Part shown: positions 2,025-47,786 of the stretch, one piece after another | Layout: the number at the start of each line of letters is the position of its first letter | Position numbering within the stretch: the first letter of the stretch is position 1 | Origin: a virus | Length of the DNA: 64,000 nucleotides | IMG/VR virus record: IMGVR_UViG_3300005841_000001 | Location: 37,658 to 101,657 of that record | Direction: 5' to 3' (one strand) | Made by a program: the position numbers and the translations under genes | The notes under the pieces: generated by a model | What the model was told of the DNA's origin: nothing | The model's database searches: none | What the model saw: the letters and a program-made list of their open reading frames with translations, nothing else

Positions 2025-2031
2025 GCCTCGG

Positions 2032-2703: not shown

Positions 2704-2733
2704 GGTGTGCTCCTTGTTCTCGGTGATGACACA

Positions 2734-2762: not shown

Positions 2763-2769
2763 GCATCTT

Positions 2770-3018: not shown

Positions 3019-3021
3019 GAA

Positions 3022-3624: not shown

Positions 3625-3630
3625 ACTGCG

Positions 3631-4026: not shown

Positions 4027-4029
4027 CGG

Positions 4030-4566
4030 TTACTCCTTGGTAGGTTGACGCTGCCAGAGCGGCCGGCGAGCTTGCTCGTCTCGCCACGCGGCGAGTTCTT
4101 CATGGCCTTTGACGGTCGGGACGATGTACATCTCTTCGGTCACCACGAACCCGTTGCGCTGCAACCAGTTCGCGGCGTTCTGCGCAACCTCGCTGAACCG
4201 CGCGGTACCGTCGTCGCCGGAAATCCAGACGTCCTGTCCGGGGCCGGTTCCGGGGAACCACATCAGGATCTCCTGCTCGGCACACAGCAGCGTCTCGAGC
4301 AGCGGCGGCGTCAAGCGGGTGTCGATCACCAGCCCCGAGGCGACCGCGCATCGGAACGCGATTTTCGTTTGCCGCGCGCGAGGACCATGCTCGACGCTCA
4401 CGTAGTACTCGCCAGTGCGAAGGTCGCCGACGCACGGCCCGAGCAACGGCAGGCCGCCGTCTTCGGGCCGGTGGTGACAGAAGTGCGGTACGTGCGCCTT
4501 GTGGAAGCCGTAGTCCGCGCGCTCGGCGGGCGGCCCCCACGTGATGCCGCGCGGCAAGGTGCGCAT
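4030..4566 (-). CDS. Unknown soluble protein
   Basis: Encodes 178 residues with several Cys/His in the first 50 (HVPHFCHHRP, LLGPCVGD). Second gene of the operon from 4794, separated by 3 nt from both neighbours. The family is not recognised. Confidence 0.75.
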   Translation of the reverse strand: MRTLPRGITWGPPAERADYGFHKAHVPHFCHHRPEDGGLPLLGPCVGDLRTGEYYVSVEHGPRARQTKIAFRCAVASGLVIDTRLTPPLLETLLCAEQEILMWFPGTGPGQDVWISGDDGTARFSEVAQNAANWLQRNGFVVTEEMYIVPTVKGHEELAAWRDEQARRPLWQRQPTKE

Positions 4567-4569
4567 CGG

Positions 4570-4794
4570 CTACAGCTTCGCGATCTCGACGCTGCGGAAC
4601 GAGCCGGCGACGGCGAAGTAGGTGACGTTCGAGTTGACCCGGTCGGTGGGGTCGAACTCGAGGCTCCCGCCTTCCCGGACCGCCCTTTCGGCGCGTGCGC
4701 GGGCGTAGTTGTGCAGATCGCCCCGGATCTTGATCTTGTCCTTCTGTCCGTTGTGGAATGTGACCGTGACCTCGATGATGTTGGTAGGAGTCAT
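4570..4794 (-). CDS. Small unknown protein, leaderless
   Basis: Encodes 74 residues (MTPTNIIEVTVTFHNGQKDK...), predicted as a beta-hairpin followed by a basic helix. The ATG is 6 nt from the -10 box TAGTCT, so it is probably translated from a leaderless mRNA. First gene of a three-gene leftward operon. Confidence 0.75.
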   Translation of the reverse strand: MTPTNIIEVTVTFHNGQKDKIKIRGDLHNYARARAERAVREGGSLEFDPTDRVNSNVTYFAVAGSFRSVEIAKL

Positions 4795-4800
4795 TCCACA

Positions 4801-4829
4801 AGACTAGCCGACTTAACTCGGGGAGGCAA
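4801..4829 (-). promoter_or_regulatory. Promoter with operator (leftward)
   Basis: Minus strand: -35 TTGCCT, spacer with CCGAGTTAAGTCGG, -10 TAGTCT. It lies back to back with the terminase start at 4836, so a bound regulator could affect both directions. Confidence 0.8.
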
Positions 4830-4835
4830 GCTCCG

Positions 4836-28694: not shown

Positions 28695-28761
28695 GCTCAT
28701 CTCCTTTACGGGCAGGGCCCGGCCGAGGAGTCCCCGGCCGGGCGCGTCGTGTTTTTCCTGG

Positions 28762-29991
28762 TCAGCTGCGTGCCGGCGCGATCGCCGGCGCGGTGAGCAT
28801 GCCGCGCAGGTACGGCCAGTAGTACGTTTCGAAGTCCGCGATCACGGTGGTCAGACCGCGCGCGGTCTGCGCCATGCCTTCGCGAGCCATCCGCATCCCG
28901 GGTCGCGTGATCGACATGTCGATGTTGCAACCGCGCTGCGGACCACCCGGTCGATTCAGGGTGCGCTCTGCCGTGTCGAGCGCCTCGGCGCCGACGACGA
29001 ACGCGCGCTCGAGTCCGACGATCCAGGCGCGGAGTTCGTCGAGGGTCCACGGCTTGTCCGCTCGAGGCTTGAGCTCACCCCACGCGAGCAGCGCCTGTTG
29101 CACATTGCGTGCCTCACCGCAGTCGGTCATCGCCTTTTCTCCAATCCTGACGAGCTGGTCACTGTGGGCCTTGATGTAGTCCTCGGCCTTGAACCGGCGC
29201 CGGCGGTGGCCGGGGCGGTGTCGCCCGGCCGGCGTGCGCCGGCGGCCGCGGCGTCCGTGCGCCGGCGGCAGGACGCGTACGGTGCCTGCCGTCGCCTTCG
29301 TCGTGCCGGGGGCGAGCAGGGCCTGCTCGCCCGAGCCGGTCGCCAGTGACGCCTCGCCTTCGTGCTCGGCGAGCCAATGCGCGTTCAGCGCCTCGGCGTT
29401 GGCGTAGGTCTTGTCGCAGCACTGGAACTTCGAGCCCCACCCTGCTGGGCGTCGCTTGCGCGGCGAGGTCGCTGCCTGGGCCGCACGCCGGGCGCGGGCC
29501 CGCTTCGCAGCTTTGGCCGCTTTCGTGGCAATGCGCACTGAGCCGGCGGTCGTCGCCCCTGCGCCGACCGCCACCCACGCCACAGCGCGGGTGATCTTCA
29601 TCTTCTTGGGGATCCGGTGCACGAACTTCTTGCGCGCCTTCCACCGGTCCTTGGTGGTCTTCTGCTTCTTGGTCTTGGGCGTCTTGCCCGGCTTCAACGA
29701 CGCCGGCAGCTTCGCCGGCTTGGCGCCCACGGTGCCGGTTGCCGTCGCGGCCGCGACCTCCGCCGCCCGGCGTTGGGCCCGGGTCTGCTTGACCTCTCCG
29801 GTCTGGGCGAGCATGCGCAGGGCCTCGCGCGCCTGCTCTTCGCGACCAACCTCATGGCGCAAGCTTCGCTTGGCGCCGGTACCCAGATCAGCGTCGGCGG
29901 GCCTGTTGGTGTCAGCGTTTCGTCGACGTTGCCGCGCGGTTCGCTCGTCCCTGCGCAGGGTCCCGTCCCCGAGTCGCTCAGGCTGGCTCAC
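28762..29991 (-). CDS. C2H2 zinc-finger, membrane-linked plasmid-transfer type protein
   Basis: Encodes 409 residues from a GTG overlapping the DUF2637 stop. The N-terminal 140 residues are very basic; one weak span lies near 140-165 (AVAWVAVGAGATTAGSVRIA). A C2H2 finger follows (CCDKTYANAEALNAHWLAEH, about residues 190-212), then an Arg/Gly-rich stretch and a helical C-terminal domain. Its place between translocase and DUF2637 genes matches transfer loci of actinomycete plasmids. Confidence 0.75.
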   Translation of the reverse strand: MSQPERLGDGTLRRDERTARQRRRNADTNRPADADLGTGAKRSLRHEVGREEQAREALRMLAQTGEVKQTRAQRRAAEVAAATATGTVGAKPAKLPASLKPGKTPKTKKQKTTKDRWKARKKFVHRIPKKMKITRAVAWVAVGAGATTAGSVRIATKAAKAAKRARARRAAQAATSPRKRRPAGWGSKFQCCDKTYANAEALNAHWLAEHEGEASLATGSGEQALLAPGTTKATAGTVRVLPPAHGRRGRRRTPAGRHRPGHRRRRFKAEDYIKAHSDQLVRIGEKAMTDCGEARNVQQALLAWGELKPRADKPWTLDELRAWIVGLERAFVVGAEALDTAERTLNRPGGPQRGCNIDMSITRPGMRMAREGMAQTARGLTTVIADFETYYWPYLRGMLTAPAIAPARS

Positions 29992-30767
29992 TGTGCGATC
30001 GCCTCCTTGGTCTCCTGCTGCTGCGCGAGCCACGTCGCGCGCACCTTCCGGCCGAGCGTCGGCCGGGTGCCGAGGTACTGCGCACCGAACCGGTCCAGTT
30101 CGGCGCCGGTGGTGTCTCCGTGCTCGTCGAGGTAGCGCAGCATCGCGTCACGGGGGCGGCTACGCAGGTCGTCGGTGAGCCATGCCGGCGCGCCGGCGAC
30201 AGGCAAGGCCTCGCCTTCGCCGGAGAGGACTCGCAGCGACGTCCCCGTAGCGGGCGCCGCGTCCGGCTCGACCGCTACCGGGGGGGCGGGGACGTCGCTG
30301 CTGGGAACCCCCGACGCTGCTGGTGACGGCACAGCAGCGGCGGGGGCGGCCTTGCGAGCGCGCTTGATGCGCGGCTTCACGTCGAGGCGGACCAGCTTCA
30401 GGATCAGTTCGTACGCGAACGCGAACGCGGCGGCCGGCCACATGTTGATCACCTGTCCGGCGGCGTCCGCCGCGGGTGCGGAGAAGTTCGCTACCAGGGA
30501 AATCGCGAGCGCGACCACGATCGCTACAACGGCGAGCGCGGGGACCTTTTCGCCGTTGCGGCGGGCCTGCACGACCACGATCGAGGCAACCACCATGAGT
30601 GCGTCGACGGACAGCGGAGTGAGCCACGAGAGCCACTCGGTTCCGGTGGCCGCGTGGTGGGCAGCGAGCTCCCGCATGTGCACGTAGCTGGCCGTGGCTG
30701 CCACGCCGGCGACCAGGCCACCGAAGCCAAGACCGGCGTTCCGGACGCTTGCGCTGGTGCTCGACAT
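29988..30767 (-). CDS. DUF2637 (Spd-like) membrane protein
   Basis: Encodes 259 residues. The ATG at 30767 has GGAAG 7 nt upstream. Four hydrophobic segments in the first 135 residues, with the HHAATGTEWLSWLTPLSVDALM region characteristic of DUF2637, then a Pro/Ala linker and a wHTH-like end (LRSRPRDAMLRYLDEHGDTT). Such proteins accompany TraB in plasmid spread between hyphae. Leftward operon head, under the bidirectional promoter at 30825. Confidence 0.85.
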   Translation of the reverse strand: MSSTSASVRNAGLGFGGLVAGVAATASYVHMRELAAHHAATGTEWLSWLTPLSVDALMVVASIVVVQARRNGEKVPALAVVAIVVALAISLVANFSAPAADAAGQVINMWPAAAFAFAYELILKLVRLDVKPRIKRARKAAPAAAVPSPAASGVPSSDVPAPPVAVEPDAAPATGTSLRVLSGEGEALPVAGAPAWLTDDLRSRPRDAMLRYLDEHGDTTGAELDRFGAQYLGTRPTLGRKVRATWLAQQQETKEAIAQ

Positions 30768-30824
30768 GCCCACTCTTCCTGTCGATTTGTCGACTGGTCA
30801 GTAGCTACGGTTTGTACGTACCAC

Positions 30825-32448: not shown

Positions 32449-34044
32449 GTGGCCAAGCGTGAGTTCCTGCCCGCATTGCGCGGCCTCGCCGCCGCCGTGT
32501 GGGGCAGTGGCGCCGTGGAGTCCAAGGACCTCGCGCAGCGGGTGCGCGCATCCTCGGCCGGCTACCAAACCCCTGGTCAGCCCTACGTCGATAACTGGAA
32601 CGTCCGCCGCGCCACGAAGGAAGCCTACGAGGGAAACCCGCTGGTCTACCGGGCCATCGAGGTCATCTGCCAGCAGGCGATCGCCCAGCGGATCATTATC
32701 CGCCGCGGTGACCCGGAGGAAGGCCCGATCGTCCGCCCCGGCAACGACCCAAGTCGCCTGCTCTACGTGCTCAACCGCCGGGCGAACCCGTGGGAAACCG
32801 CGCTGATCTTCCGGCATCGGCTGGTCGCGCAGTTCCTGCTCTCTTCGCGCGGCGTCTTCATCGAGGTCATCCGCACGCGCTCGGGCAAGATCGGCATCCT
32901 CAACCTCCTCGACCCGGACCTGTGCGCGAACATCCCGGTCGAAAAGCGCGATCCCGTCACCAACGAGGTCCTCGAGTCCGACCCGATTGGCGTGGTGGAA
33001 GTCCAGGTCCCCGGAGGCGGGTACGACTACCTGCCCCGGTTCAACCCGCACGCCACCGCTGAGAACCAGCCGGCTTCCGTCCTGTGGATCCGCTCACCGC
33101 ACCCGCTCGTGCTCTGGCGGGGCATGTCCCCCGTTCAGGCGGCTGGCCTGCCGATCGACCTCGACCGTTACGCCCGGATTTACAACCGCCGGTTCCTCCA
33201 GAACGACGGCCGGCCCGGCGGGCTGATCTCGATCAAAGGCACCGTCGACAAGGGCACGATGGAGCGGATCCAAGCCCAGTTCAACGGCGGCCCCGAGTCG
33301 GCCGGCCGGACCACCGTCGTCGAGGGTGACTCGGTCAGCTACGCCGACACCTCCGGCAGCCCCCGGGACATGCTGTGGGGTGAGCTGTCGAACGCCACCC
33401 GCAAGGACATTGCGATGACCTTCGGTACGCCCGAGTCGGTGCTGGGAGACGCGTCCGGGCGCACGTTCGACAACGCGGATGCCGAGTGGGAGATCTTTTG
33501 GGAGGGGCGAATGAAGCCCCTGCTGGGCACGTTGGACGATCAACTCGACGTGCTTACTGGCGGGTACGACGACGACTTCTACCTGCGTCACGACCTGTCC
33601 AAAGTGTACGTTTTGGGTCGTCACCAGCGCGCCGAAGAAGATCGCGCCGTTGCCGACTACGACAAGGGCATCCGCACCATCGACGAAGTTCGGGACGTCA
33701 AGAGGCTGAGGACGTACGACATCCCCGCTACCCGTGTGCTCTGGCTCGCCGGCGGCAAAATCCCCGTCGGGCAGGACGAGGCCGACACCGAAGCGGCCGC
33801 CGCGCTCCAGACTGCCGGCATCGGACAACCGGCCAACGCCGGCGCCGAAGCGCAGGCCGGCGCCGCGGTTGGGTCGGCGCTCGGCGCTCGGATCTCTGCC
33901 AACGACAACGACGCCCGCGTCCTGCGCGTGCAGTCTTCGCGCGCGGACCTCGAGCCGGCCCTGGGCACCAAGGCGCTGCCCGCGGAGGATCCGGAGGGTG
34001 AGCAGAGCCGCGCGCGAGCCGTACGCACCCCTGAGTGGCGATGA
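32449..34044 (+). CDS. Portal protein
   Basis: Encodes 531 residues from a GTG with GGAGGTGG upstream. HK97/SPP1-type portal features: EGNPLVYRAIEVICQQ near residue 60, the VLWIRSPHPLVLWRGMSPVQ region, LDRYARIYNRRFLQNDGRPG, and FGTPESVLGDASGRTFDNAD, where portal proteins contact the terminase side. It forms the dodecameric DNA gate at one capsid vertex. The C-terminal 80 residues are Ala-rich and overlap the MuF-like gene. Confidence 0.93.
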   Translation: MAKREFLPALRGLAAAVWGSGAVESKDLAQRVRASSAGYQTPGQPYVDNWNVRRATKEAYEGNPLVYRAIEVICQQAIAQRIIIRRGDPEEGPIVRPGNDPSRLLYVLNRRANPWETALIFRHRLVAQFLLSSRGVFIEVIRTRSGKIGILNLLDPDLCANIPVEKRDPVTNEVLESDPIGVVEVQVPGGGYDYLPRFNPHATAENQPASVLWIRSPHPLVLWRGMSPVQAAGLPIDLDRYARIYNRRFLQNDGRPGGLISIKGTVDKGTMERIQAQFNGGPESAGRTTVVEGDSVSYADTSGSPRDMLWGELSNATRKDIAMTFGTPESVLGDASGRTFDNADAEWEIFWEGRMKPLLGTLDDQLDVLTGGYDDDFYLRHDLSKVYVLGRHQRAEEDRAVADYDKGIRTIDEVRDVKRLRTYDIPATRVLWLAGGKIPVGQDEADTEAAAALQTAGIGQPANAGAEAQAGAAVGSALGARISANDNDARVLRVQSSRADLEPALGTKALPAEDPEGEQSRARAVRTPEWR

Positions 34045-35353
34045 CCTGCCGGTCTACGACCCGGCCAATGTCACCATTCGGGAGGCCGCGCCGACGCCGG
34101 CGCCCGGTCCGAGGCGCGACGTCCTTGTGGCCATGTCCGAGCAGCAGGCCCAGCGCGCCGAGGACCAGATGCTCGGCGTGCTCAACGACTGGCTCGAGCG
34201 CTTCCAGGCGAAGGTCACTGCGACCTTGAACGGTCCACGCGCCCGCAGGGGCACGAAATGGTGGGCACCCTCCGGTGCGATCGAACACAAGCTCATGCCG
34301 GTGCACGTCGAGACGAAGACGCGCGCGCTGGACGCGCCCTACATCGTGCCCGAAAAGTTGGTGGACGAAGCCGCCACCGCGGTCCGCCCGGTTGCCCTGC
34401 GAATCGCCCTCGACGCCGGCGCGGACACCGCCGGCCGGCTCGGCATCCTGCCCGAGGACCGTCGCGGCGACGGCATGTTCGCCGTTGATCAGCTCGCCCT
34501 CGAGGATGCAGTGGACCAGGCCGTGAGCCGCATCCTGAGCACCATCGAGGCGCACGTGATCGAGGTTCGCAAGGAGATCCTCAAGGCCGATTCCTCTGCC
34601 GAATCGCTGGACGAAGTGCTCGACCTGATCGAGGCCGCGCACCAGCGCGGCGGAAACTGGATCCGCATGACCGGTCGAACACTGTCCAACGCCTTGCGCA
34701 ACGAGGCCGCCTTGCGCACCGCGCAGGCCCTCGGCGTCACGCACATGCAATGGCTGTCCCGGCGGGACGGCCGCGTCCGGTTGACCCACGTCCGGGCCGA
34801 TGGCCAGGTGCGCCGGATCGACGACGAGTTCGACGTGGGCGCCTGGCGGCTGCGTTTCCCCGGCGACCCGAAAGACCTCCCGGCCAGCTGGGCGGAGGTG
34901 GCGGGGTGCCGCTGCTCGCCGCTGTTCCGGGCCCCGGACGCCAAGGTGACCGAGGCCGTGCGGCTGCTCAACGACCAGGCGGCCGGCGGCGATCCCAAGG
35001 CTGTTCGCCGGCTGCTCGCGGCGGCTGCCTCTGCGCCCGAAGTGCCGGTGCCGGCCGACGCACCGCCGGCGCCGTGGGCCTCGCAGGTCGTGCTCGCTGA
35101 GCCGATCGTGGCCTACCGGGCGCTCGAATCTGTCATCGACGCCGTGCCCGGGCAGTGGCTCGCGTTCGCCGGTGCGCTGTCGCTCGGCCTGGCCGCGCCG
35201 GCGGCGTTCAGCGCCGCATCCCCGATGCTGGCCGTTGCGCTGCCCGCGGGCGCGATCGTGGTCGTGGTCGGTGGATCGGTGGTGCTTCCCGAGGGGACAG
35301 CGATCGAGGTGGTCGGCACGACGCCGGAGGCGACCCTGACCCGGTTGGCCTGA
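33998..35353 (+). CDS. Phage head morphogenesis protein (MuF/SPP1 gp7-like)
   Basis: Encodes 451 residues. The GTG at 33998, with GGAGG nearby, overlaps the portal gene by 47 nt. The conserved MuF region is at about residues 225-310: GRTLSNALRNEAALRTAQAL, SRRDGRVRLTHVRADGQVRR, and FPGDP ... AGCRCSPLF. MuF proteins bind the portal and enter the capsid, and may be ejected with DNA. The C-terminal 100 residues are hydrophobic and Ala-rich (LAFAGALSLGLAAPAAFSAA), which is unusual and may insert in a membrane. Confidence 0.88.
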   Translation: MSRAAREPYAPLSGDDLPVYDPANVTIREAAPTPAPGPRRDVLVAMSEQQAQRAEDQMLGVLNDWLERFQAKVTATLNGPRARRGTKWWAPSGAIEHKLMPVHVETKTRALDAPYIVPEKLVDEAATAVRPVALRIALDAGADTAGRLGILPEDRRGDGMFAVDQLALEDAVDQAVSRILSTIEAHVIEVRKEILKADSSAESLDEVLDLIEAAHQRGGNWIRMTGRTLSNALRNEAALRTAQALGVTHMQWLSRRDGRVRLTHVRADGQVRRIDDEFDVGAWRLRFPGDPKDLPASWAEVAGCRCSPLFRAPDAKVTEAVRLLNDQAAGGDPKAVRRLLAAAASAPEVPVPADAPPAPWASQVVLAEPIVAYRALESVIDAVPGQWLAFAGALSLGLAAPAAFSAASPMLAVALPAGAIVVVVGGSVVLPEGTAIEVVGTTPEATLTRLA

Positions 35354-35355: not shown

Positions 35356-35405
35356 CGCCGACCGGCCCCGTCCATCTCGGGGGAGTGGACAGGGCCGGTC
35401 AGGCG
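35356..35405 (+). terminator. Terminator-like hairpin
   Basis: GACCGGCCC-GTCCA / TGGAC-GGGCCGGTC stem with outer ACGCC/GGCGT pairing, after the MuF gene. It may dampen but not stop virion-gene transcription. Confidence 0.7.
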
Positions 35406-35501
35406 TCAGTACAAAATCGAACGGCTGGACGCTACCGCAGCGCCCCCCATGGTCACAATCCCTCGCGCGCCTCCCCGGCCGCGGCGTTCCCGCCTGCGAC
35501 G

Positions 35502-36953
35502 ATGTCGCCCATGGCAGAAGAGCAGACCGGCGGCATGATCGCCCTCATCCCGCGCGCGCAGGATGCCGCCGCGCTGGTCGTTCCGGGCGGGGAAACCGCT
35601 GACGAGATGCACCTGACGTTGACCTTCCTCGGGGATGACATCAGCGGGTGGGACGCCGGCCAGATCGCGGCAGCCGCCGGCGCCGCCGGCTCGGCCGCGG
35701 CGCAGCTTGCCGCCATCACCGCACGCGTCATGGGGCATGCGGTGTTCAACCCCGACGGTCACGCCGATCGCGAGCCGTGTGCGGTGTACCTGGTCGGGGA
35801 CTCGAACGTTCTCGCGCCGCTGCGCAACGCGCTGGTGCCCTACGCCGACCACGAGCAGCATGAGCCGTACCTGCCGCACATCACCGCCGGCTTCGGCGTG
35901 CCGGTCGGCAAGCTGACCTTCACCGGCCCTGTCGTGTTCGATCGCGTGCGGGTGGCGATCGGTCCGCAGGTCCTGGACTTCCCACTCGGCGACGCGGAGG
36001 AGATCAAGCGGATCATGGCCGAATTCGAGACCGAGACCAAGGGCAATATGCCACCCCAGTTCGCGGCCAACGCGGCGAAGAAGAAGGGCGCCGGGAAGTC
36101 CGACGACAAGGGCGGTACCGACGATAAGGGCATCAACAACATCGGTGACCTCGCAGCCGCGGTGAAGCGATACAAGGCAGCCAAGCCCGAGGCGCAGGCC
36201 GAGCTGTGGCCGAAGCTGAGCGCGGCTGCGAAGAAGCTCAAGGCCACCAAGATGATCGCCGGTCTCGCGCCCAAGGGCGGCGCCGGGAAGTCCGACAACA
36301 GCGACGAAAAAGCCTTGTTCGAGGCTGTCGCGCTCGAGTTCAAAGTCACCAGCGAAGACCCTCGCGCGATCAAGATGCGCCGGTGGTGGGCGATGTCGGC
36401 CAAGGCGCGCGCGATGTGGAAGCCCGGCGTTCCGGGCGACTTCAAGCGTCTGGTGCGGGCGCTCAAGGAGCACACGAGCATGCCTACTCGGATGATCAAG
36501 GGCTTCGCCGCGAACGTGCATCACCTCGCTCTCGGCGCATGGCCAGGACGCGAAGGACGCAAGGAGGCTTTCGACTGGCTCGACATGATCGAAACCAAGG
36601 CCGCGCACGAAGGGGAAATGGTGGACGGTCGCGCATTGCTGGAGCAGTACAAGGCGATTCGGTCCCAGCTGGACGCGGCCATCGATGATGACGAGGACGG
36701 CGACACCGAGGCATCCGGTGACATCGCCGATGTGGGGGCGGGCGATGACGGAGTTTCGCCCGAAGAGGTCTATGACGAGGCGATGGACCTGGACATCGAC
36801 TGGGCGCTGGAGGGCGATGGCAGCTTGTCGGGCGGCCCGGACGAGGAGCTTGACTCTCCGAGTGAACCCGGAGAGAATAGCGAGGCCGACGAGGATGACG
36901 ACGCCGAGCTGGAGGAGCTCGAAAGCCTCTTCAACGCCGGCGCGTCCAGGTAG
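35502..36953 (+). CDS. 2H-phosphoesterase domain fused to capsid-cargo-like region
   Basis: Encodes 483 residues; the ATG at 35511 is an alternative and neither has a clear Shine-Dalgarno. Residues 1-180 form a 2H phosphoesterase (2'-5' RNA ligase-like) fold, with both catalytic motifs HLTLTFLG (from residue 37) and HITAGFG (about 129). 2H enzymes hydrolyse 2'-5' or cyclic phosphate bonds, and in phages can degrade host oligoadenylate signals. The rest is Lys/Ala linker, a helical domain and a highly acidic tail (DDEDGDTEASG, EADEDDDAELEELE). Position suggests packaging in the head. Confidence 0.8.
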   Translation: MSPMAEEQTGGMIALIPRAQDAAALVVPGGETADEMHLTLTFLGDDISGWDAGQIAAAAGAAGSAAAQLAAITARVMGHAVFNPDGHADREPCAVYLVGDSNVLAPLRNALVPYADHEQHEPYLPHITAGFGVPVGKLTFTGPVVFDRVRVAIGPQVLDFPLGDAEEIKRIMAEFETETKGNMPPQFAANAAKKKGAGKSDDKGGTDDKGINNIGDLAAAVKRYKAAKPEAQAELWPKLSAAAKKLKATKMIAGLAPKGGAGKSDNSDEKALFEAVALEFKVTSEDPRAIKMRRWWAMSAKARAMWKPGVPGDFKRLVRALKEHTSMPTRMIKGFAANVHHLALGAWPGREGRKEAFDWLDMIETKAAHEGEMVDGRALLEQYKAIRSQLDAAIDDDEDGDTEASGDIADVGAGDDGVSPEEVYDEAMDLDIDWALEGDGSLSGGPDEELDSPSEPGENSEADEDDDAELEELESLFNAGASR

Positions 36954-37012: not shown

Positions 37013-40000
37013 ATGACCGTGCCCGCAGGGCTGGAGTACAAGACCGCCGGCACGCTCACGCCGGAGATCCCGCCGGCGCTCGCGGGGCCGAAGCACGAGG
37101 GCATCGTCACCGCCATCGTCGCGGTTACCGGCGTCAAGGACGATGTCGACGACGTCATCATTCCCGGCGCGTTCAAGCGGACTCTTGCCGAGCGACGACC
37201 CAAGGTCTGCCTCGGACATGACTGGAATCGTCCCATCGGCAAGACCCTGGACATCAAGGAGCTGATGCCGGGCGACCCTGACCTGCCGAAGACCACGGGG
37301 GAGGGGCAGCCGTGGCCGGTCGAGGCCGGTGCCGTCATCGCGCGTTCGCAGTACAACATGGACACCGAGGACGGCCGGAAAGCCTTCCAGGATGCCATGT
37401 TCTACGGCGAGCAGGAGTGCTATCAGTCCATCGGGTACCGTGTCCCGCCGGAAGGTAAGAAGTTCAAGGGCGGCGTGCGCTATATCCATGACCTCGACCT
37501 CTTCGAGTACGGGCCTGTACTGCACCCGGCGAACCGGCTCGCCACGATCCAGTCCACGAAGGACGACGGCGGAGCTCGCGAGGACAACGCCGTCAAGCCA
37601 GCCGAGATCAAGGCGCGAAAGTACGTCAAGGATTCCGCGTACTGGGGCTTGCCCGTCGGAACTTTGATCACGCCCGGCATGAAGCCGCGCGGTCGGACTG
37701 CGCTCGCCGAACGACGAGCAGGCAAGACTCCCGACCGCAACGCCGGTGTTGCTACCGAGCCGCTCAAGCCTTCGCCCGCGACCGGGAAGCCGCGGTCGGT
37801 GCCGCACAAGCCCGAGAAGGCGAAGGAAGAGCGCGACTCGGCCGGCCTCTTCCCCGAGCCGGACGCGCCCGAGGGTGCACGGGTCAAGCCGTCCGACCCG
37901 CAGGGCCTCGACGCCGAGCACGTGCAGGATCTCGTCGAGAACGAAGCCGGCGAGCAGGACCACGTCGCGCGCGATCACGCGTTCAACGGCCTGATCGATG
38001 AGGGCATCACCCCGGCCGAGCTCGAAGAGGACTTGCGCGCCTCCGAGCACTGGCCTGACGAGATGCCCGAAGAGGACCGGCAGGCCCGGATCGACGACGT
38101 CGTCAACGACTATCGCCGGCAGTACCGCCGTGAAGCTGCGCGCCAGGCCAGCAACCCCGAACCGCGCGAGCAGCACCCCGATGACGACAACCTCGCCGTC
38201 GAGAAGGAAGAGGCCGAAGGAACCGCGAAGCCCGAACTCGAGCCGGATGCCAAGCGCGACATCACTACGCTGACGCCCGAGGAGCTCGACAAATACATGG
38301 AGGTGGCCCGAAAGGGTTCGCTGTCCAACGTCGGGGACAAGCAGCGTCGGTACCAGGACGTGTACGCCAAGGCGCAAGCGGAAAAGCTGCGCCGCGCTGA
38401 CGTCGAGCGCCGGTCCGTGCCTGCGCATCCGCTTGACCCCAAGGCGTACGCCGAAGCCACCCGCGCCGTCGAGGCGCGACGCGGCCGCGTCGCCGACGTG
38501 CAGCGACGCAACCAGGAAATCAGCAAGACCAACGCGCAGATTGACGCGTCCGAAGAGGTTGCGACGAACGCGCCCGAGACGATGAAGAAGCTTCCGGCTG
38601 GTGCCGGGAAGAAGGTGTCGAAGGCAGGCAACGGCCGAGTCGCTTTCCGTGGGAAGGGCACAGCGAACTGGGCCATCGTGTCCGCCGATGGCCGAGCCAT
38701 CGTGTCGCCGCTGAACTTCGAGAGTGAGGGACGCGGGAACGTCAAGCTGTCCGGCCCGCAGCTGGATGAACTTGCCGATCGGATCGTCGGCATCACCAAC
38801 TCGAAGGGCGACCGCGCACCGTTCACTGACCCCGACTCTGAGAAGTGGGTGCCCGGCTTCCGCGACTCCGATGGGCGCAGCCTCGAGCAAGCAGTGTCCA
38901 AAGTGGTCGCCGACTACGCGAACGAGCGCGGCCTGAAGTCGGGCACGCGCACGCGCATCGGTGCGGACTCCGTCCCATGGGGCCACAAACAGGGTGAACA
39001 CGGCGTGGTCAACGCCGAAGGGTTCCACCCGCAGGAGCGGATTCAAGACGTCGGTATCGGCGACCAGGTGAAGCTCCGCAACGGTGATGTCAAGACGATC
39101 GCGAAGAAGGAGGAAGCCACCGGCTCGCAGCGGGACCGCTACGGTGTCGACGTTTTCACGCTCACGTTCGACGACGGTACGACCGAGAAGTTCAGCACCG
39201 GCCAACGGTTCGACACCAAGTACAGCGACGAGAACAACCCCGACGCCGAAGGCCGACTCAACGACCCGGGCATGGGGTACACCAGCGACTCGAACCTGGG
39301 CAGCAAGCGGGACAAGCTGCGTCCGACGTTCAAGGGCGACGGCGACGTGCCCGCGGGGACCCGGTTCATCTACACCCCGGATCGCGCCGACGGCGACAAC
39401 CGCCCCCGTGTCGGCACCGTCACCGACCGCGTGATGAACGCCAACGGGCACGAATTTCAGGTCGTCGAGTACGACGATGGAACTTTCGATGGCGTCAACG
39501 TCTCGAAGCTCGCGGCCGACGGCAAGATCAAACTCAAGCCGACGCCCGAAGACGAGGCCGATGCCCGAGCGCAGTGGGGTGTCGGTGACGGTGCAACAGA
39601 AACCGGTTCCGACTTGGGAGAAGGCGAGTCGGACACCGAGGATGTTGGAGCGTCCGAGGGCGACGGCACGCCACCCGAGGGTGAGCCGGCCGACGACACC
39701 GCGCCCGAGGGCGATCAGCCACCCGCGGCCGATGACGACGAAGCCGCCCGGGTCGCCAAGCTCGGCGCCGAAGACAATCCTGACCGCACCCCGATCGCCG
39801 GCCTGGCGAACCAACTCACCGGCCAGGCGAAGCCGGACGTCTCCGACGTCAGCACCGAGGACCTGAACGCGCTGGACCAGGAGTTCGCCCGGCGCGCCGA
39901 CCTGCTCGGCAAGCCCGGCGCCGTCACCCGTGCACACCAGGCGGTCAAGGACGAACTGACCACTCGGACCGACACCGGTGCCGAACCGGCCCCAGAGCCG

Positions 40001-43000
40001 GACGGTGGGCTCGGCGCCGACGAAGCGGTGATCAGCCGCGCTGAAGTCGATGACGCCCAGCGCATCGCCGACGAAATCCTGGGTGTCACCGAGGGGCCCG
40101 ACGGCGAGCTGGAAGCCGACCCCGACGTAGCCGACCGGCAGGATCGCGTGGAAGCCCTGCTCGATCAGGCCGAATCCGGCGCACTCGACCTCGAGTCCGC
40201 CAGTGACGATGTCGTGACCGGACAGCGGCGGGACCTGGTCGAGGAGCTGCGGTTCCAGAACGCTGTCGCTCGGCGTGACAGCCGACAGCGGCAGATCACC
40301 CGGGCCGATGAAGGCGGCCGACAGCCCCGCGCCGAAGGCGACACTGAGCCGGATGCCGGCACGGAGGCGGAGGGCACCGGACCCGCGCCTGAGTCGAAGG
40401 CGCGTCCGGGCGTCGCCGGCGCGGCCGAGGACCTCGCCGATGCGCTCGATGACAACGACCAGCAGGCCGCCGCCGCCGCGGTCGCTCGGCTCGAGTCCTC
40501 GGTGCGTCGTTCCCGTTCCGATTCCGAGCACCTCGCTCCCCTGCGCGAAGCTCTCGCCGGCGACGGCGGGATCCAGGCCGCGCTCGACGCCGGCACGATC
40601 ACTCCCGCAACGCTGCGCGACTTCGCGAAGAACCTGCGCGACGAACGCCGGCAACAGGCCAACACTCGAGCCCGCGCCCGACGCACGGTCAAGCGGCTCG
40701 AGCGTGAGCGGTTGCGCGGCCTGATCGGCGCCTACGACACCGAGCTGCGCCGGCGCAACCTCGAGCCCGAGAACTTCGGCGGCCTGGTGCCTGCCATCGA
40801 CGAGGGCGCCGGCCGGCCCGAGGTGACCGGGGATGCCGACCTGCCGGAGGGCACTGAAGCCGGCGAGCTGGATGTCAGCAATGCTGAGACCGGCCCGAGC
40901 GGCGAGCGAGCCTCCCGGCTGGTCGCCGAGCCGTGGCGGGTCGTCAACTCGGACGATGCCGCGATGAACGGCGGCGACGCCACCTCGGCGGCCACCCGGA
41001 AGGCCGCCGCCGCCGCGTTCGCCGAGGTGGCCGACAAGTATGCGCCGGTCCTGCGAGAGGCCACGCCCGAGCAGCTCGCCGCCGCCGAGGCGAAGCTGGA
41101 CAAGCGGGGCGCCGACGTCCGCAGTGAAGCGATGGTGATCGCCCTGCTGCTGCCCCGCGGGACGCAGCGAGACGCCTTCATGGCCGACATGCGTACCGCA
41201 ATGGGCAACTACCAGACCAATCTCGCAGCCCTACAGGCTCGCGCCGACCGCGGCGAAGTCAGCCTCGACCCGGCGCCCGAGCTGGGTTCGATCGCGCCCG
41301 GGCGCGTCGGGTGGGGCGGCCGGCTCAATGCGCTGGCACCTCGCCAGCGAGCAGACCGGCCGGCCGGTACGCCGCCGTTCAGCACGGTCTCGCAGGTCAA
41401 GAGCAACCTCAAGTCGCTGACCGCGCCCGCCGGATCGAGCGACTTCGAGCAGAAGACGTTCACCGAGGGCCGTGACCAGTTGATTCGCGAGATCGACGCC
41501 GCCGGCAACGACGTCTTCCTCTCCCCTGGTGGTGGGCTGCTCGCTTTCCGGGCCACCACCCGCGACGGCAAGCGCTGGTTCTTGATCCATACCCAGAGCG
41601 GGCAGTCCATCCCGTCGCTGTTCAACTTCGACGGTCGACAGACCGCCCTCACTCCGGCCACCGGACGCGGTGTGGAAGCTCAACGCTACGACCTCGACGG
41701 GCCGGCCATGCGTCGACTGATGACCGCGTTCGAGACCATGCAGGATCCGCGCGGCCGGCAAGTCGACTTCACCGAGTCGGATCCGGATCGGTTCGCGCAG
41801 AACTTGGTCGGGTGGCGAGACTTCTCCGCTGACGGAACCGTGCGCCCGGCCTTTGTGGATGGACGCCCTCGCTACAACGATTCGATGGAAGGGGCCGCCA
41901 TTCTCGAGGCGGTCCGCGATGACATGCGCCGCTACGGCACCACCTCCGCAGTGCACCGTGCGACACAGATGGTGGCAGGCGGCACCGAGTACACCGGCGT
42001 CAACGGACGCAGCCCGCAGCAGTACCGGCAACTGATGAACGAGCAGTTTCCGTTCGCGTTGCAGGACTTTAACTACGGGCGCAAGCGAGTGCGCGGCATC
42101 GGCCCATCCGAAGACCGCACGCCGGGGGAGCTGAAGAGCGACAAGGACACCGCCGCCGCGATCGATCAGGCACGCGCACTGATCCAGACCGGTAACCCCG
42201 TCGAGGCAGTGTCGGTGTTACGTGCCCGCGCGGCTGAGCTCAAGGACACCGACGGCGAGCGCGGTGGTCGGTTCGGCTCGCAGCGGCTCGAGGGCCTGGC
42301 CAACCAGACCGCCGACCTGTTCTCGCCGGCGCAGTCCGATATGGACCGTCTGATCGGCGCGCAACAGAATGACGTCATCGCGGTGGCCAGCACCGACGAC
42401 GAGCCTCCGATGTTGTTCCGGCTCACCGTCGAACCGCGGCTCGTGCTCACCCGCAATGACGGCACCCGGCTTTACCAGGCCAGCGTCACCAGCGACCGCA
42501 TGGGTGACCAGGACGTCACCATCGACACCGCCGATCAGTACGGCGTGCGCATTGGCGATCGGTCCGCCACCCGCGAGCAGACCAACCTCGGTCAGTCCGG
42601 AATCAACCAGTGGGCGGTGTACCGCGCCGAGGAAGGGCAGGGCGCGCCGGTGGACAACACGCAGATCTTGCGCGATTCGAAGCGCACCCTGCGCGAGTTC
42701 GACCGGTCGGCCGGGTTCGGCGACGGTGAAGACGAGGGCGATCAGGGTGGTGGCGGGGGAGGGCCAGACCAGGGGCCCGACGGCGGCCCCGATGAGACCG
42801 GCGGTGAACGACCGGTGGCCGCCGAGGGAAAAGCGATCACCGTCGACCAGGCCAAGATCGGCGACCTGGTCGCCATCCCGTCCGGACAGGATGAGCCGCC
42901 GTTCGTCGGGCACGTCATGGGCAAGAACGTCCTCGAGGACACCCGGGCGCTGCTCGTGCTGGGCCCGCAGGGCGATGTCCGCACCTACCCGCTGGACGCC

Positions 43001-45886
43001 AGCGGGGTCATTCACCGGATCGAGCTCACCGACCAGGACGTCCTCGACCGGTTGCCCGACTTCGAGAACTCGCCACGCATCACCGTCGGGGAGGCCTACC
43101 AGGTTTTCCCTTCGCTGGCCGATGGCACTCCGGTGCGCATCACGACCGGCATCGGAGAGGACTACCGCGCGCTGGCCGCGGGGGTGATCACTATCGGACC
43201 CGACGGCCCGATGTTGCGCACCGGCGACGGCCGGCTGCTCTCGGCGAACGCCCTGATCGACGATGCCAAGGTGCACGCCGCACGTGTCGAGATGGTCGCC
43301 GATCCAGGCGACTTCACCGGTGAAGAAGACCGCTACATCAACGGCGAAAAGTCCGTGCAGGTAGCGGCCGGCGATCGAGTTCAGGCGTTCATCGAGATGG
43401 AGGACCCCAGCGCCGACGGGGGCGTGCGCACCCGGTGGGCCAACGGATGGGTCGAGCAGGTGGATCAGAGCGGCAGCGGGGAGACTCTCGGCGCGCTGGT
43501 GCGCCTGCCCTCGGGTGCGGCGGTTCGAGTGCAGTTCACTGACGGCAAAACCAGTCGTCTACGTCGCAAGGGCGGCCCGACGAAGCGGACCCTGGCCGCG
43601 GTCAATGCGGCCAGTCCGACCGCGCGGGGGATCCAGAAGCCCGACCCGCAGCTGAGCGGTGGCGTGCAAGCGGTGTCGATGTCCACGATGCTGCTCGGAT
43701 TGAACGCTTTGGACGGCACTGATCACCTGTTGGACAACGAGGCCGCACCATCGGAACGGCTGCGTGAACTCGCCGACCTTCTCGAGCACGATCAGCCTGA
43801 TCTCTCGCCGAACGGCGGGGCGACGCTCTATCACAACGAGGTCCCCGTCTCGCCGCGCCTGATCCGGTTCTTCGCCGGCCGGCCGCCGACTTCCGGGGAC
43901 GAGGAATTGCCTCCCGAGGCACGCGACGCCGCGGTGGCGTTCTCGCGCGCGTTCGCCGTTCGGTCGTTGCGCGCGGCCGCCGACTCGATTGCCCAGTTCG
44001 AGCAGATCGAGGAGCCGGACCCGGAGCGTCGGAAGGAACGGCTCGAGAACGTCCTGCGCACGACAATGACCAGTCGTTCACTGGCCAACCGTGCCGTCAC
44101 CGAGATCAACGCCGCCTACGGAGAAGCGATCGCCAAGGCCGGCGAAACGAACGCCGTCGACGACAACGCGCCTGCCGAGGGCCTGCGCCGGCGCGTCACC
44201 GACGGCGCCGCGCGCGCCGCGCAGACGACGTTCGACAACACCGTTTTGGCCATGGTCAACTCCGGACAGACGGACCTGAGTCCGGTTCAGATTCGCGCCG
44301 TGGTCGAGCGGACGATGGACGACCCCAAGGTGGGCGGTCACCTGGCCGGATTCAACGACGCGACCGCCGGCGACACCGAGGCCTCGAGCAAACTGCGTTC
44401 GACGATCGCCGAGGCCGTCGCAAAGGACGTCCTCGAGGCGCAGCAGGGTGGCAAGCTCAAGAGCGAGTGGGACGCGATCATCCAAGAGCGCTCCACCGGC
44501 GACGTCGCACCGGCCCCGCAGGCTCACGCCGCGGTGGCGAGCGTCGTCGCGGCCGAGCTCGAGCGGGCCGACGTGCTTTCGAAGGTCGATCCGAGCCAGC
44601 CCTACACCGAGCGGATCGCCGCACTACGAGCTCAGTTGCCCGCCAAGGGGCAGGTCGGGAAGCGGGGCTCGACGGTCTACCGGCTCACTGGCGACGTGCT
44701 CGACGGCAAGCTGGAGCTCGTTGCCGAGCAGGCCTACCTCGACGACATTGCGCCCGACGGGGGGCCCGGTCGCGAAGCAATGCGACACCTGGCCGTCCTG
44801 CGGGCCCTCGGCCAGGAAATCCAGGCCGAGTCCCGCCGGCGACTCGACGAGAAGATCGCCGGCGACTCGGACACGCAATTCCGGCGCAGGCGGCTCGAGG
44901 AGATCCGGACGGAGCTGGCCGGCATGCCCACCGAAGCGGAGCTCAAGGCCCGCATCGACGCGGCGCTACAGGCCGAAGCGAGCCAGGAAGACGGCTCGCT
45001 CACCGCAAGCCAGATCGGGGCGATGCGTGTCGCCCTCATCCGCGGGTTCGGTGCGGTGGAGAAGTTCGCCGGCGACCGTAGCTACGGCCGCGCCGGCGCG
45101 AAGATGACGGCGGTGGCCCAGCGGGTCCAGGAGAAACTCGGCTCGGACATCGCGGCCGCTCGCAAGGTCCGTGACCAGCGGGAAGAGCTGCTCGATTCTC
45201 GGCGCCGGATCAAGGCCGCGCAGGACAAGTTCGAGGCGCCGCTACTGGCTCAGACTCGCCGTGAAGCCCTCGCCGGTGTGCGCGATCTGGGCAAGCCGGG
45301 CGACGCGCGGTTCGAGCTCGGCGAGACCGGCACGATGACGGCGGAAAAGACGAAGGGGTACATGGACTGGGTGGCCCAGCACTACCCGGCCGAGTGGCTC
45401 CCCCACGCCGGCGAGGTCACGATCACGCAGCAGACTGGCCGCGGGTTCTACAGTGACTTCAACGATCGCATCGAAGTGTCGAACGTCTACGACCAGCCTC
45501 GGTTCGCCAACGCCGTCGGCGGGCCGTACGGCCAGGTGTTCATCCACGAGTACGGGCACCGGATGGAGAAGAAGATCCCCGGTCTACTGCACGCCGAGTG
45601 GCTGTTCCACTGGGACCGGACCAGCACCGGCGCGGTCGGCTCGCGCGAACGCGAAGGCACCCAATGGGTGGGCGACCTCGTGCCCGGCGGTGGGTACGGC
45701 CAGGATGAGTTCACGATGCCGGACGACTTCGTCCACGCCTACTCGGGGAAGGTGTACGGCAATGCCGACCTGAATACCCCTGCGTGGGAGGTCTTCACGA
45801 TGGGGATGGAGTCGCTGTTCGCCGGCTCGACACACCTGGACAATGACTACGAAAACTGGATGCTGGGCGTCCTGGCGGGAGTTTGA
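37013..45886 (+). CDS. Giant polyvalent protein: prohead protease N-terminus, zincin C-terminus
   Basis: A single uninterrupted frame of 2,957 residues. Residues 25-180 are an HK97-type (U35) prohead protease: GIVTAIVAVTG, PGAFKRTL, VCLGHDW (H69), CYQSIGYRV (S139), FEYGPVLHPANRL. Charged, partly disordered linkers and several small beta domains follow (for example around 670-850 and 1940-2200). Residues 2250-2800 are long helices. The end is a metallopeptidase with HEYGH (2845-2849) and a possible third ligand in WEVFTMGMESL. This matches the polyvalent proteins of phages and conjugative elements, which are thought to enter the host with the DNA. The protease may free the parts. Confidence 0.85.
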   Translation: MTVPAGLEYKTAGTLTPEIPPALAGPKHEGIVTAIVAVTGVKDDVDDVIIPGAFKRTLAERRPKVCLGHDWNRPIGKTLDIKELMPGDPDLPKTTGEGQPWPVEAGAVIARSQYNMDTEDGRKAFQDAMFYGEQECYQSIGYRVPPEGKKFKGGVRYIHDLDLFEYGPVLHPANRLATIQSTKDDGGAREDNAVKPAEIKARKYVKDSAYWGLPVGTLITPGMKPRGRTALAERRAGKTPDRNAGVATEPLKPSPATGKPRSVPHKPEKAKEERDSAGLFPEPDAPEGARVKPSDPQGLDAEHVQDLVENEAGEQDHVARDHAFNGLIDEGITPAELEEDLRASEHWPDEMPEEDRQARIDDVVNDYRRQYRREAARQASNPEPREQHPDDDNLAVEKEEAEGTAKPELEPDAKRDITTLTPEELDKYMEVARKGSLSNVGDKQRRYQDVYAKAQAEKLRRADVERRSVPAHPLDPKAYAEATRAVEARRGRVADVQRRNQEISKTNAQIDASEEVATNAPETMKKLPAGAGKKVSKAGNGRVAFRGKGTANWAIVSADGRAIVSPLNFESEGRGNVKLSGPQLDELADRIVGITNSKGDRAPFTDPDSEKWVPGFRDSDGRSLEQAVSKVVADYANERGLKSGTRTRIGADSVPWGHKQGEHGVVNAEGFHPQERIQDVGIGDQVKLRNGDVKTIAKKEEATGSQRDRYGVDVFTLTFDDGTTEKFSTGQRFDTKYSDENNPDAEGRLNDPGMGYTSDSNLGSKRDKLRPTFKGDGDVPAGTRFIYTPDRADGDNRPRVGTVTDRVMNANGHEFQVVEYDDGTFDGVNVSKLAADGKIKLKPTPEDEADARAQWGVGDGATETGSDLGEGESDTEDVGASEGDGTPPEGEPADDTAPEGDQPPAADDDEAARVAKLGAEDNPDRTPIAGLANQLTGQAKPDVSDVSTEDLNALDQEFARRADLLGKPGAVTRAHQAVKDELTTRTDTGAEPAPEPDGGLGADEAVISRAEVDDAQRIADEILGVTEGPDGELEADPDVADRQDRVEALLDQAESGALDLESASDDVVTGQRRDLVEELRFQNAVARRDSRQRQITRADEGGRQPRAEGDTEPDAGTEAEGTGPAPESKARPGVAGAAEDLADALDDNDQQAAAAAVARLESSVRRSRSDSEHLAPLREALAGDGGIQAALDAGTITPATLRDFAKNLRDERRQQANTRARARRTVKRLERERLRGLIGAYDTELRRRNLEPENFGGLVPAIDEGAGRPEVTGDADLPEGTEAGELDVSNAETGPSGERASRLVAEPWRVVNSDDAAMNGGDATSAATRKAAAAAFAEVADKYAPVLREATPEQLAAAEAKLDKRGADVRSEAMVIALLLPRGTQRDAFMADMRTAMGNYQTNLAALQARADRGEVSLDPAPELGSIAPGRVGWGGRLNALAPRQRADRPAGTPPFSTVSQVKSNLKSLTAPAGSSDFEQKTFTEGRDQLIREIDAAGNDVFLSPGGGLLAFRATTRDGKRWFLIHTQSGQSIPSLFNFDGRQTALTPATGRGVEAQRYDLDGPAMRRLMTAFETMQDPRGRQVDFTESDPDRFAQNLVGWRDFSADGTVRPAFVDGRPRYNDSMEGAAILEAVRDDMRRYGTTSAVHRATQMVAGGTEYTGVNGRSPQQYRQLMNEQFPFALQDFNYGRKRVRGIGPSEDRTPGELKSDKDTAAAIDQARALIQTGNPVEAVSVLRARAAELKDTDGERGGRFGSQRLEGLANQTADLFSPAQSDMDRLIGAQQNDVIAVASTDDEPPMLFRLTVEPRLVLTRNDGTRLYQASVTSDRMGDQDVTIDTADQYGVRIGDRSATREQTNLGQSGINQWAVYRAEEGQGAPVDNTQILRDSKRTLREFDRSAGFGDGEDEGDQGGGGGGPDQGPDGGPDETGGERPVAAEGKAITVDQAKIGDLVAIPSGQDEPPFVGHVMGKNVLEDTRALLVLGPQGDVRTYPLDASGVIHRIELTDQDVLDRLPDFENSPRITVGEAYQVFPSLADGTPVRITTGIGEDYRALAAGVITIGPDGPMLRTGDGRLLSANALIDDAKVHAARVEMVADPGDFTGEEDRYINGEKSVQVAAGDRVQAFIEMEDPSADGGVRTRWANGWVEQVDQSGSGETLGALVRLPSGAAVRVQFTDGKTSRLRRKGGPTKRTLAAVNAASPTARGIQKPDPQLSGGVQAVSMSTMLLGLNALDGTDHLLDNEAAPSERLRELADLLEHDQPDLSPNGGATLYHNEVPVSPRLIRFFAGRPPTSGDEELPPEARDAAVAFSRAFAVRSLRAAADSIAQFEQIEEPDPERRKERLENVLRTTMTSRSLANRAVTEINAAYGEAIAKAGETNAVDDNAPAEGLRRRVTDGAARAAQTTFDNTVLAMVNSGQTDLSPVQIRAVVERTMDDPKVGGHLAGFNDATAGDTEASSKLRSTIAEAVAKDVLEAQQGGKLKSEWDAIIQERSTGDVAPAPQAHAAVASVVAAELERADVLSKVDPSQPYTERIAALRAQLPAKGQVGKRGSTVYRLTGDVLDGKLELVAEQAYLDDIAPDGGPGREAMRHLAVLRALGQEIQAESRRRLDEKIAGDSDTQFRRRRLEEIRTELAGMPTEAELKARIDAALQAEASQEDGSLTASQIGAMRVALIRGFGAVEKFAGDRSYGRAGAKMTAVAQRVQEKLGSDIAAARKVRDQREELLDSRRRIKAAQDKFEAPLLAQTRREALAGVRDLGKPGDARFELGETGTMTAEKTKGYMDWVAQHYPAEWLPHAGEVTITQQTGRGFYSDFNDRIEVSNVYDQPRFANAVGGPYGQVFIHEYGHRMEKKIPGLLHAEWLFHWDRTSTGAVGSREREGTQWVGDLVPGGGYGQDEFTMPDDFVHAYSGKVYGNADLNTPAWEVFTMGMESLFAGSTHLDNDYENWMLGVLAGV

Positions 45887-46365: not shown

Positions 46366-46409
46366 GAAGTAGTCAGCCCGTGATCAAGCACGCACAGAGG
46401 AGAGGGCCA

Positions 46410-47786
46410 ATGCCCGGTATCGCTACCCGGATCGAAGAGCTTCAGAAGGAAGGCGCCGCGCTCAAGACCAAGATGGACGAGGTCTTCGAGAACGGTTACA
46501 AGTCGACCGACGACGGCGCGGTCCTCGACCCGAAGATGGTCAAGGAGTTCCGCGCGATGAACGAGCGCGCGACCGCCATCGTCAAGGAGATCAACGAGTA
46601 CAAGGGCGGGTACAACGCCCTGGCCGCGCTCGCCGGCAAGAACGCCGGTGACGGTGACGACGAACTCGCCGCCCTCCCGCTGGCCGCCCGCGGTCTGCTG
46701 CTGCCCCCGGGTGCCGGCCAGTTCAAGAGCGTGGGCACGCGCTTCCTCGAGTCCAAGGAGTTCAAGAACCGCCAGCCGAACGGCAACACCGCGAGCTTCG
46801 AGCTCGAGCACGACATCGTCGGCGGCGGCGTCGAGCGCAAGGATCTCTACAGCGCGACCGGCGGCACCCTGACGCACCTGGCGTTCGGCCACGTCGACCG
46901 CGAGCCGCTGGTGCAGCGGCCCTACCGCAGCGGTCGTGTGCGCGACCTGTTCCCGGTGGCCAACACCACCGCGAACCTGATCGAGTATCTGCGGGTCCTG
47001 GGCTACCTCAACGGTGCGAACAACGCCGGCATGGTGCCGGAGCGGACCAGCGACAACTCGAACTTCGGCCTCAAGCCCCACACCGAGCTCCAGTTCCAGC
47101 CGGCGCAGGCACCGATCCGCACGATCGCCCACTGGGAAGTCGCGCACCGCAACACCCTCGACGACGAACCCCAGCTCCAGTCCATCATCGACACCGAGCT
47201 GCTCTACGGCCTCCGGCTGATGGAAGACGCGCAGCTGCTCAACGGTGACGGCAACGGCGAGAACATCCTGGGCATCCTGCGCACCCCCGGCATCCAGGAG
47301 TACCCGGGCGCCGGCCTGGGCTACGGCCAGACCGGTACGCCGGTGCAGGCGAAGGACACCCGGATCGACGCGGTGCGTCGCGCTGCGACCCGGATCATGC
47401 TCGCCTACTACGAGCCGACCGGTGTCGTCTGCCACCCGTTCGACTGGGAAGCGATGGAGCTGACCAAGGACGCGAACGGCAACTACATCGTCACGTCCAA
47501 CGTCCAGATCGGCGCCGAGCAGCGGATCTGGCGGATGCCCGTCGTCGCCACCCCGGCGATCGACGAGGGTACGGCGCTGACCGGCGCGTTCGGTCTCGGC
47601 GCGAAGGTCTACGACCGGCAGCGCTCGAACATCCGGATCGCCGAGCAGCACGGCGACCTGTTCGTTCGCAACGCCGTGGTCGTGCTGGCCGAAGAGCGCG
47701 TCGGCCTCACCGTGAGCCGGCCGGAGTCCTTCATCAAGATCGACTTCGACTCGGCTGTGGCGACCCCGGCGGCCCCGGCGGTCTGA
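46410..47786 (+). CDS. Major capsid protein (HK97 fold)
   Basis: Encodes 458 residues from an ATG with GAGGAGAGG upstream. Residues 1-110 are a helical scaffold-like delta domain (RIEELQKEGAALKTKMDEVF). The body shows capsid features: PYRSGRVRDLFPVANTTANL, PIRTIAHWEVAHRNTLDDEP, MEDAQLLNGDGNGENILGIL and AVVVLAEERVGLTVSRPESF. It assembles the icosahedral shell; the delta domain is probably removed by the prohead protease encoded just upstream. Confidence 0.95.
   Translation: MPGIATRIEELQKEGAALKTKMDEVFENGYKSTDDGAVLDPKMVKEFRAMNERATAIVKEINEYKGGYNALAALAGKNAGDGDDELAALPLAARGLLLPPGAGQFKSVGTRFLESKEFKNRQPNGNTASFELEHDIVGGGVERKDLYSATGGTLTHLAFGHVDREPLVQRPYRSGRVRDLFPVANTTANLIEYLRVLGYLNGANNAGMVPERTSDNSNFGLKPHTELQFQPAQAPIRTIAHWEVAHRNTLDDEPQLQSIIDTELLYGLRLMEDAQLLNGDGNGENILGILRTPGIQEYPGAGLGYGQTGTPVQAKDTRIDAVRRAATRIMLAYYEPTGVVCHPFDWEAMELTKDANGNYIVTSNVQIGAEQRIWRMPVVATPAIDEGTALTGAFGLGAKVYDRQRSNIRIAEQHGDLFVRNAVVVLAEERVGLTVSRPESFIKIDFDSAVATPAAPAV

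Follow-up and report, generated by a model that had tools for sequence, protein, structure and literature searches.

Polyvalent proteins are very large multidomain proteins that are encoded in phage head clusters and predicted to be packaged; zincins are their commonest domain, and assemblin-like peptidases have been reported in them (Iyer et al. 2017, PMC5512222). MuF polymorphic toxins attach variable C-terminal effectors, including metallopeptidases (a metallopeptidase domain occurs in 20% of the putative toxins), to a constant N-terminal head protein (Jamet et al. 2017, PMC5576092). In phages T4 (internal proteins and Alt) and P1 (DarB), a short sequence is found on otherwise unrelated packaged proteins and a prohead protease is part of the system: the first 30 residues of DarB suffice for capsid targeting (PMC9024508), and the capsid-targeting sequence of the T4 internal proteins is removed by the prohead protease (PMC5694885). 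Here, we describe a 2,957-codon gene that recalls each of these systems in some of the traits just named. It lies in a stretch of 64,000 nucleotides (the window), positions 37,658 to 101,657 of the 101,657-bp IMG/VR record IMGVR_UViG_3300005841_000001, from an uncultured contractile-tailed phage. The gene fuses an N-terminal S78 prohead protease to a C-terminal zincin and, after the protease and a hypervariable linker, carries a segment of about 30 residues that we call the head-cargo tag. It probably encodes a prohead-core polyprotein that is headed by the protease and carries cargo. Its parts are as follows, in window coordinates.

37013..45886, plus strand: the fusion gene, 2,957 residues, predicted mass 319 kDa; the same fusion is present in locus L011 and other contigs
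37013..37564, plus strand: S78/assemblin-type prohead protease domain, residues 1-184; Pfam PF04586, E=3.4e-6
37565..37597, plus strand: hypervariable linker, about residues 185-195, from the alignment
37598..37693, plus strand: head-cargo tag, residues 196-227 (about KPAEIKARKYVKDSAYWGLPVGTLITPGMKPRG); profile independent E-value (iE) 2.9e-16
37934..38128, plus strand: backbone element sp302, residues 308-372, in all complete members
38657..38893, plus strand: repeat domain, copy 1, residues 549-627 (569-627 with one profile); iterated profile
40028..40288, plus strand: backbone element helA, residues 1006-1092
40484..40816, plus strand: backbone element helB, residues 1158-1268
41471..41839, plus strand: repeat domain, copy 2, residues 1487-1609
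45326..45883, plus strand: C-terminal zincin domain, residues 2772-2957; iterated profile and alignment

The N-terminus is a peptidase S78 by family score, catalytic residues and neighbourhood. Its Pfam score is 27.7 bits against a cut-off of 21, and 37.4 bits with both matching stretches joined. H69, S139 and E165 are invariant across 11 aligned fusion relatives, and the first two are also kept in four cultured-phage proteases. The domain is 42-50% identical to the annotated head maturation proteases of phages Cantare and ChisanaKitsune and to homologues in GMA6 and Gilgamesh, and an HK97-type capsid gene (PF05065 at 46380) adjoins the fusion gene save for one small gene. Since this is the sole S78 domain in the whole record, the fusion is the candidate enzyme for capsid maturation. 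Residues 185-199, around the linker, are 13% identical to L011. In Gilgamesh, another enzyme is fused to the maturation protease (L006:9947-11872), a NUDIX domain following S78 (PF00293, E=5e-16).

The tag has the consensus K-x-R-x-V-R-D-x-x-Y-W-G-x-P-V-G-T-P-I-x-P-G-M-K-P, and V205, D207, Y210, W211, G212, P214, G216, T217, I219, M223, P225 and G227 are invariant in the 11 aligned fusions. All complete family members except L012 carry it. Among the segments compared, it has the lowest ratio of nonsynonymous to synonymous substitution rates (dN/dS): 0.09 against 0.36 for the S78 domain in the pair L015/L096, and 0.20 against 0.40 between the window and L011, the latter values being rough because the pair is diverged and the tag short. 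A 27-residue query hit 26 of 50,697 phage records; at the matching positions, the annotation is almost always ADP-ribosyltransferase, MuF/protease fusion or hypothetical protein. The core pattern matched 28 times in 2.9 million viral contigs; 18 IMG/VR loci were confirmed, most of them with the tag directly C-terminal to an S78 domain. Strong profile matches were obtained in 30 open reading frames (ORFs), against a single match at E=0.81 in shuffled ORFs. In the remaining 37.7 kb of the record, which was also searched, there was no tag besides the copy in the fusion.

The tag lies near the start of the Gordonia-phage ADP-ribosyltransferases, and the HNH/zincin proteins of GMA6 and ChisanaKitsune have two copies; it is also present in Cantare gp11 and gp12 and in mycobacteriophage MuF/protease fusions. 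One of these fusions, the 1,668-residue MuF/maturation protease protein gp7 of Taptic, has the same tag at residues 874-904, but it is led by MuF, its tag lies far downstream and no zincin is recognised in it. Homologues of the 2H phosphoesterase/RNA-ligase-like gene upstream of the fusion also bear the tag in L013 (1,281 residues) and L016 (1,005 residues). Bacterial genomes searched with the S78-tag region yielded a single tag-bearing protein and no fusion: a 279-residue protein of Dactylosporangium roseum (chromosome, L114:9992-10831), weakly similar to endonuclease VII, in the head-gene cluster of a prophage-like region between MuF-like and capsid-like genes (roles assigned by eye). No published description of the tag was found in open-licence papers, in searches that were not aimed at the tag sequence.

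One short sequence is thus attached to several unrelated head-cluster proteins, as a capsid-targeting sequence would be, and the tag most likely serves to dock proteins inside the prohead or to sort them there. Any likeness to the T4 and P1 sequences would be one of function, with targeting by the tag putative; a difference is that many copies of the tag are internal and some come directly after a protease. Gordonia phage VanLee has the tag in gp128 (L090:5920-6759), whose gene lies a long way from the head cluster, in the neighbourhood of genes for a Ro-like protein and an acetyltransferase. The parts of the VanLee genome that were read contain no annotated maturation protease; the tag is therefore not just a site for S78 to cut, and its interpretation as a pure cleavage signal is weakened. 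We also considered an internal restart that would free the cargo. There is no in-frame ATG, GTG or TTG within 45 codons 5' of the tag core in the fusion gene; in relatives, a few start codons have weak Shine-Dalgarno-like matches, and a restart is possible there.

The S78 profile collected 80 IMG/VR loci, and the tag search added L094, L096/L099, L104, L105/L106, L107 and L109, as well as tag-bearing L110, whose contig is that of L016; L094, L096, L104, L109 and L110 are incomplete at the 3' end. In most of the 80 loci, the protease has 420-870 residues, with a C-terminal extension. Giant proteases are found in L011 (3,143 residues), L014/L015 (2,044), L017 (2,053), L013 (1,578), L021 (1,282) and L025 (1,242), and fusions with the same order occur in several diverged lineages. 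L011, from another metagenome, is colinear with the window's protein (50% identity over residues 6-366 and 36% over residues 1173-2957) and has a C-terminal zincin with HELGH. L002/L003 match the window's protein at 100% over the parts covered and may derive from the same sample.

Every complete member, including the 626-residue L012, has sp302, helA and helB in fixed order after S78 (iterated profiles). The last two are the most widely shared parts of the family, and residues 993-1092, around helA, are 63% identical to L011. From their position and their apparently helical, charged sequence, judged by eye, helA and helB appear scaffold-like. The cargo on this backbone varies from a zincin (the window and L011) to ParB-like and zeta-toxin modules (L105) to nothing (L012). 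Along the backbone, L105 and L107 share 60-73% identity, and L105 has two additional in-frame insertions that are absent from L107: one at about residues 265-347, matching ParB-like PHROGs, and a zeta-toxin kinase at residues 1794-1947 (PF06414, E=1e-13). The kinase is placed between helB and a C-terminal tail common to both proteins; the zincin of the window's fusion is likewise C-terminal to helB. This pair illustrates the gain and loss of effector modules on a single backbone, much as happens in polymorphic toxins. The anatomy of the gene, the swapping of modules and the sharing and conservation of the tag are directly evident from these comparisons. The only recognised element in the middle of the window's protein (about residues 370-1000 and 1610-2760) is the repeat domain of about 100 residues, present in two copies and found also in the giants that Streptomyces-type phages encode separately. 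The structure model of copy 2 (predicted local distance difference test score, pLDDT, 76.7; predicted template modelling score, pTM, 0.75) had no Foldseek match in the PDB.

By its motif, the C-terminus is a zincin: HEYGH occupies residues 2845-2849, the third, downstream acidic ligand is E2926, and both HExxH and the glutamate are retained in L011, L021, L029, Bacillus phage vB_BboS-125 and Streptococcus phage 315.3. The region matched PHROG 8561 (E=6.6e-5) and, just at E=0.063, the minor head protein phrog_19443. A structure model of residues 2530-2957 (mean pLDDT 82.5, pTM 0.78) has a helix, three strands, the HExxH helix and the glutamate helix in that order, which is the order given for the zincin core in PMC5512222. 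A PDB sequence search with the C-terminus gave no match. Foldseek found no significant PDB match for the model; PI3K entries made up most of the top rows and are taken to be matches to the long helices. Against BFVD, the model matched three unnamed proteins from phages, the best at E=1e-10. The two Firmicutes phages place the same zincin at the end of head proteins: in vB_BboS-125 it ends a MuF protein recognised by Pfam, and in 315.3 a head-cluster protein. The fusion differs from MuF toxins in that the carrier is the maturation protease: the Pfam scan gave no MuF match within it, and MuF has a gene of its own, two genes upstream (within 33734-35353).

In many relatives, the protease and the giant are separate genes, and in many Streptomyces-type phages the homologous giant is a gene of its own 5' of the protease, with a degenerate zincin site. 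Streptomyces phage Gilgamesh encodes such a giant, the hypothetical protein gp48 (L010:11979-25853), which has 4,624 residues, takes up about 11% of the genome and ends in a degenerate zincin. It lies upstream of gp52, the S78 protease homologous to that of the fusion, with three small genes between. Like the window's fusion, gp48 has the C-terminal domain and two copies of the repeat domain; it differs in that protease and giant are separate genes, in its degenerate zincin site and in that no helA or helB was found. Both HExxH and the glutamate are lost in gp48 and in similar IMG/VR giants. The persistence of the domain without an active site in many such giants suggests a role beyond catalysis, in packaging or structure. 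The zincin-containing region of the N4 virion RNA polymerase is required for encapsidation (PMC5512222).

From the precedents of T4, P1 and MuF, we infer how such a protein might be packaged, cleaved, ejected and active in the host. The protease and the scaffold-like backbone would be built into the prohead, bringing the attached cargo along, and the tag would dock core proteins there. The protease would then cut the capsid protein and cut itself free. The freed cargo would remain in the head and leave with the DNA on ejection, and the zincin would either trim the polyprotein further or work in the host. Two findings strengthen the idea of packing: head-cluster ADP-ribosyltransferases and nuclease-like proteins have the tag, and the backbone of L105 carries ParB-like and zeta-toxin modules. 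If this is correct, the head protease also acts as a vehicle for delivery, and anything fused to it would be packed, as the protease is needed inside every prohead. More broadly, it is quite possible, and we propose tentatively, that actinobacteriophages share a transferable head-loading tag of about 30 residues and that, in this lineage, the maturation protease has turned into the carrier of polymorphic cargo (swappable zincin, ParB-like and zeta-toxin modules on the conserved backbone), parallel to MuF toxins and separate from them. The tag would then be a simple handle for finding head cargo in actinobacteriophages, many of whose head-cluster genes lack a known function, and it could be used to load proteins into these phages. 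New here are the shared backbone with inserted modules, the tag itself and the separate giants with a degenerate zincin.

Several observations weigh against a cargo-carrying polyprotein. Pfam and PHROG scans recognised no known effector domain between the S78/tag region and the zincin. The minimal member L012 is without the tag, and the proteases of Cantare, GMA6 and Gilgamesh do not have it directly after S78. VanLee is the known exception to the head-cluster placement of the tag, in addition to its apparent lack of an annotated maturation protease in the parts read. At the usual copy number of a maturation protease, a 319-kDa protein would also represent a large mass in the head.

The same lack of recognised effectors fits the foremost alternative, a polyprotein that serves assembly alone, its long middle being an oversized scaffold or core and its zincin helping to dismantle it after assembly, with no delivery to the host. 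The layout of a protease plus extension is compatible with this, as are the helical, charged appearance and wide sharing of helA and helB, the acidic stretches (net charge -23 over residues 870-1000) and the zincins that terminate head proteins in other phages. However, on this same backbone L105 has a ParB-like and a zeta-toxin module, and the tag is borne by ADP-ribosyltransferases and HNH proteins that are encoded by separate genes. Disassembly driven by the zincin cannot be general, because many giants are without its active site. We regard an assembly-only role as less likely.

It is more doubtful still, and indeed improbable, that the gene encodes a typical polyvalent protein joined to the protease by chance, which would act against host defences after injection and use its zincin as an autoprocessing enzyme. 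Its size, zincin and head-gene context agree with such a protein, as does a transfer-type module in the same record, but polyvalent domains such as LPD and ArdC-N were absent from the Pfam scan at E<=1. None of the other domains of polyvalent proteins (PMC5512222) was recognised, the assemblin-like peptidase is C-terminal there and N-terminal here, and the family is organised by a conserved protease backbone and a shared tag. Where polyvalent proteins combine at least two recognised conflict-related domains in one polypeptide, Pfam recognises nothing but S78 in the window's fusion; L105, with its ParB-like and zeta-toxin modules, would qualify. A preliminary description of this DNA, made from the letters alone, had called the gene a polyvalent protein. 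The zincin part of that claim agrees with the motif and the PHROG matches, one of them a head protein, whereas the domains specific to polyvalent proteins did not appear. It further proposed that the protein might be cut into effectors and might counter host defences. Its claim of a conjugation module is supported in part, by an FtsK-type ATPase and a DUF2637 protein; the ORFs scanned, a subset of all, included no relaxase. The ATPase and DUF2637 genes lie at 26673-30773 on the minus strand (FtsK/SpoIIIE ATPase, 675 residues, PF01580, E=1e-10; DUF2637 membrane protein; an adjoining unassigned gene of 423 residues), between the terminase (4836-6311) and the portal, and resemble actinobacterial transfer modules.

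The notion that a frameshift or misassembly joined two neighbouring genes, to which the separate protease and giant of many relatives would lend itself, is refuted by the independent contigs with the fusion, L011 among them, by even codon-position GC content and by the tag conserved across the junction, and its probability is negligible. The ORF at 37013-45886 (plus strand) is stop-free over its 2,957 codons, with a predicted isoelectric point of 4.9, and a ribosome-binding-site-like GAGAGGGA lies 8 nt 5' of its ATG. GC content is uniform from end to end at the third (GC3, 0.80-0.89) and second (GC2, 0.42-0.54) codon positions, and the ORF is therefore not two frames merged by a sequencing error. 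The preliminary description had itself raised a frameshift, which was looked at and not borne out. The in-frame protease-zincin fusion that it placed between portal and capsid was recovered through the ORF, the S78 match and HEYGH, and its numbering of H69, S139, HEYGH and the acidic ligand proved right. A protease of about 200 residues is not, as it had supposed, normal for this slot: most of the lineage has roughly 420-870 residues, and the smallest backbone protein has 626.

Upstream in the window, directly 5' of the large terminase gene, a 1,073-codon ORF (1618-4839, plus strand) has no Pfam match; several shorter ORFs overlap it on the opposite strand, and it may not be a gene. In the head cluster, the fusion sits between portal and capsid, with two more genes separating it from the portal:

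32449-34044: portal
within 33734-35353: MuF-like head protein
35385..36953, plus strand: 2H phosphoesterase/RNA-ligase-like gene, phrog_6439 element
37013..45886, plus strand: the fusion gene
from about 45883: small gene between the fusion and the capsid gene
46380..47786, plus strand: HK97-type major capsid protein, PF05065, E=4.6e-40

The N-terminal helical region of the capsid protein, judged by eye to be a delta-domain, is the presumed substrate of the protease. The sheath and tape measure genes follow at 50428 and 53727.
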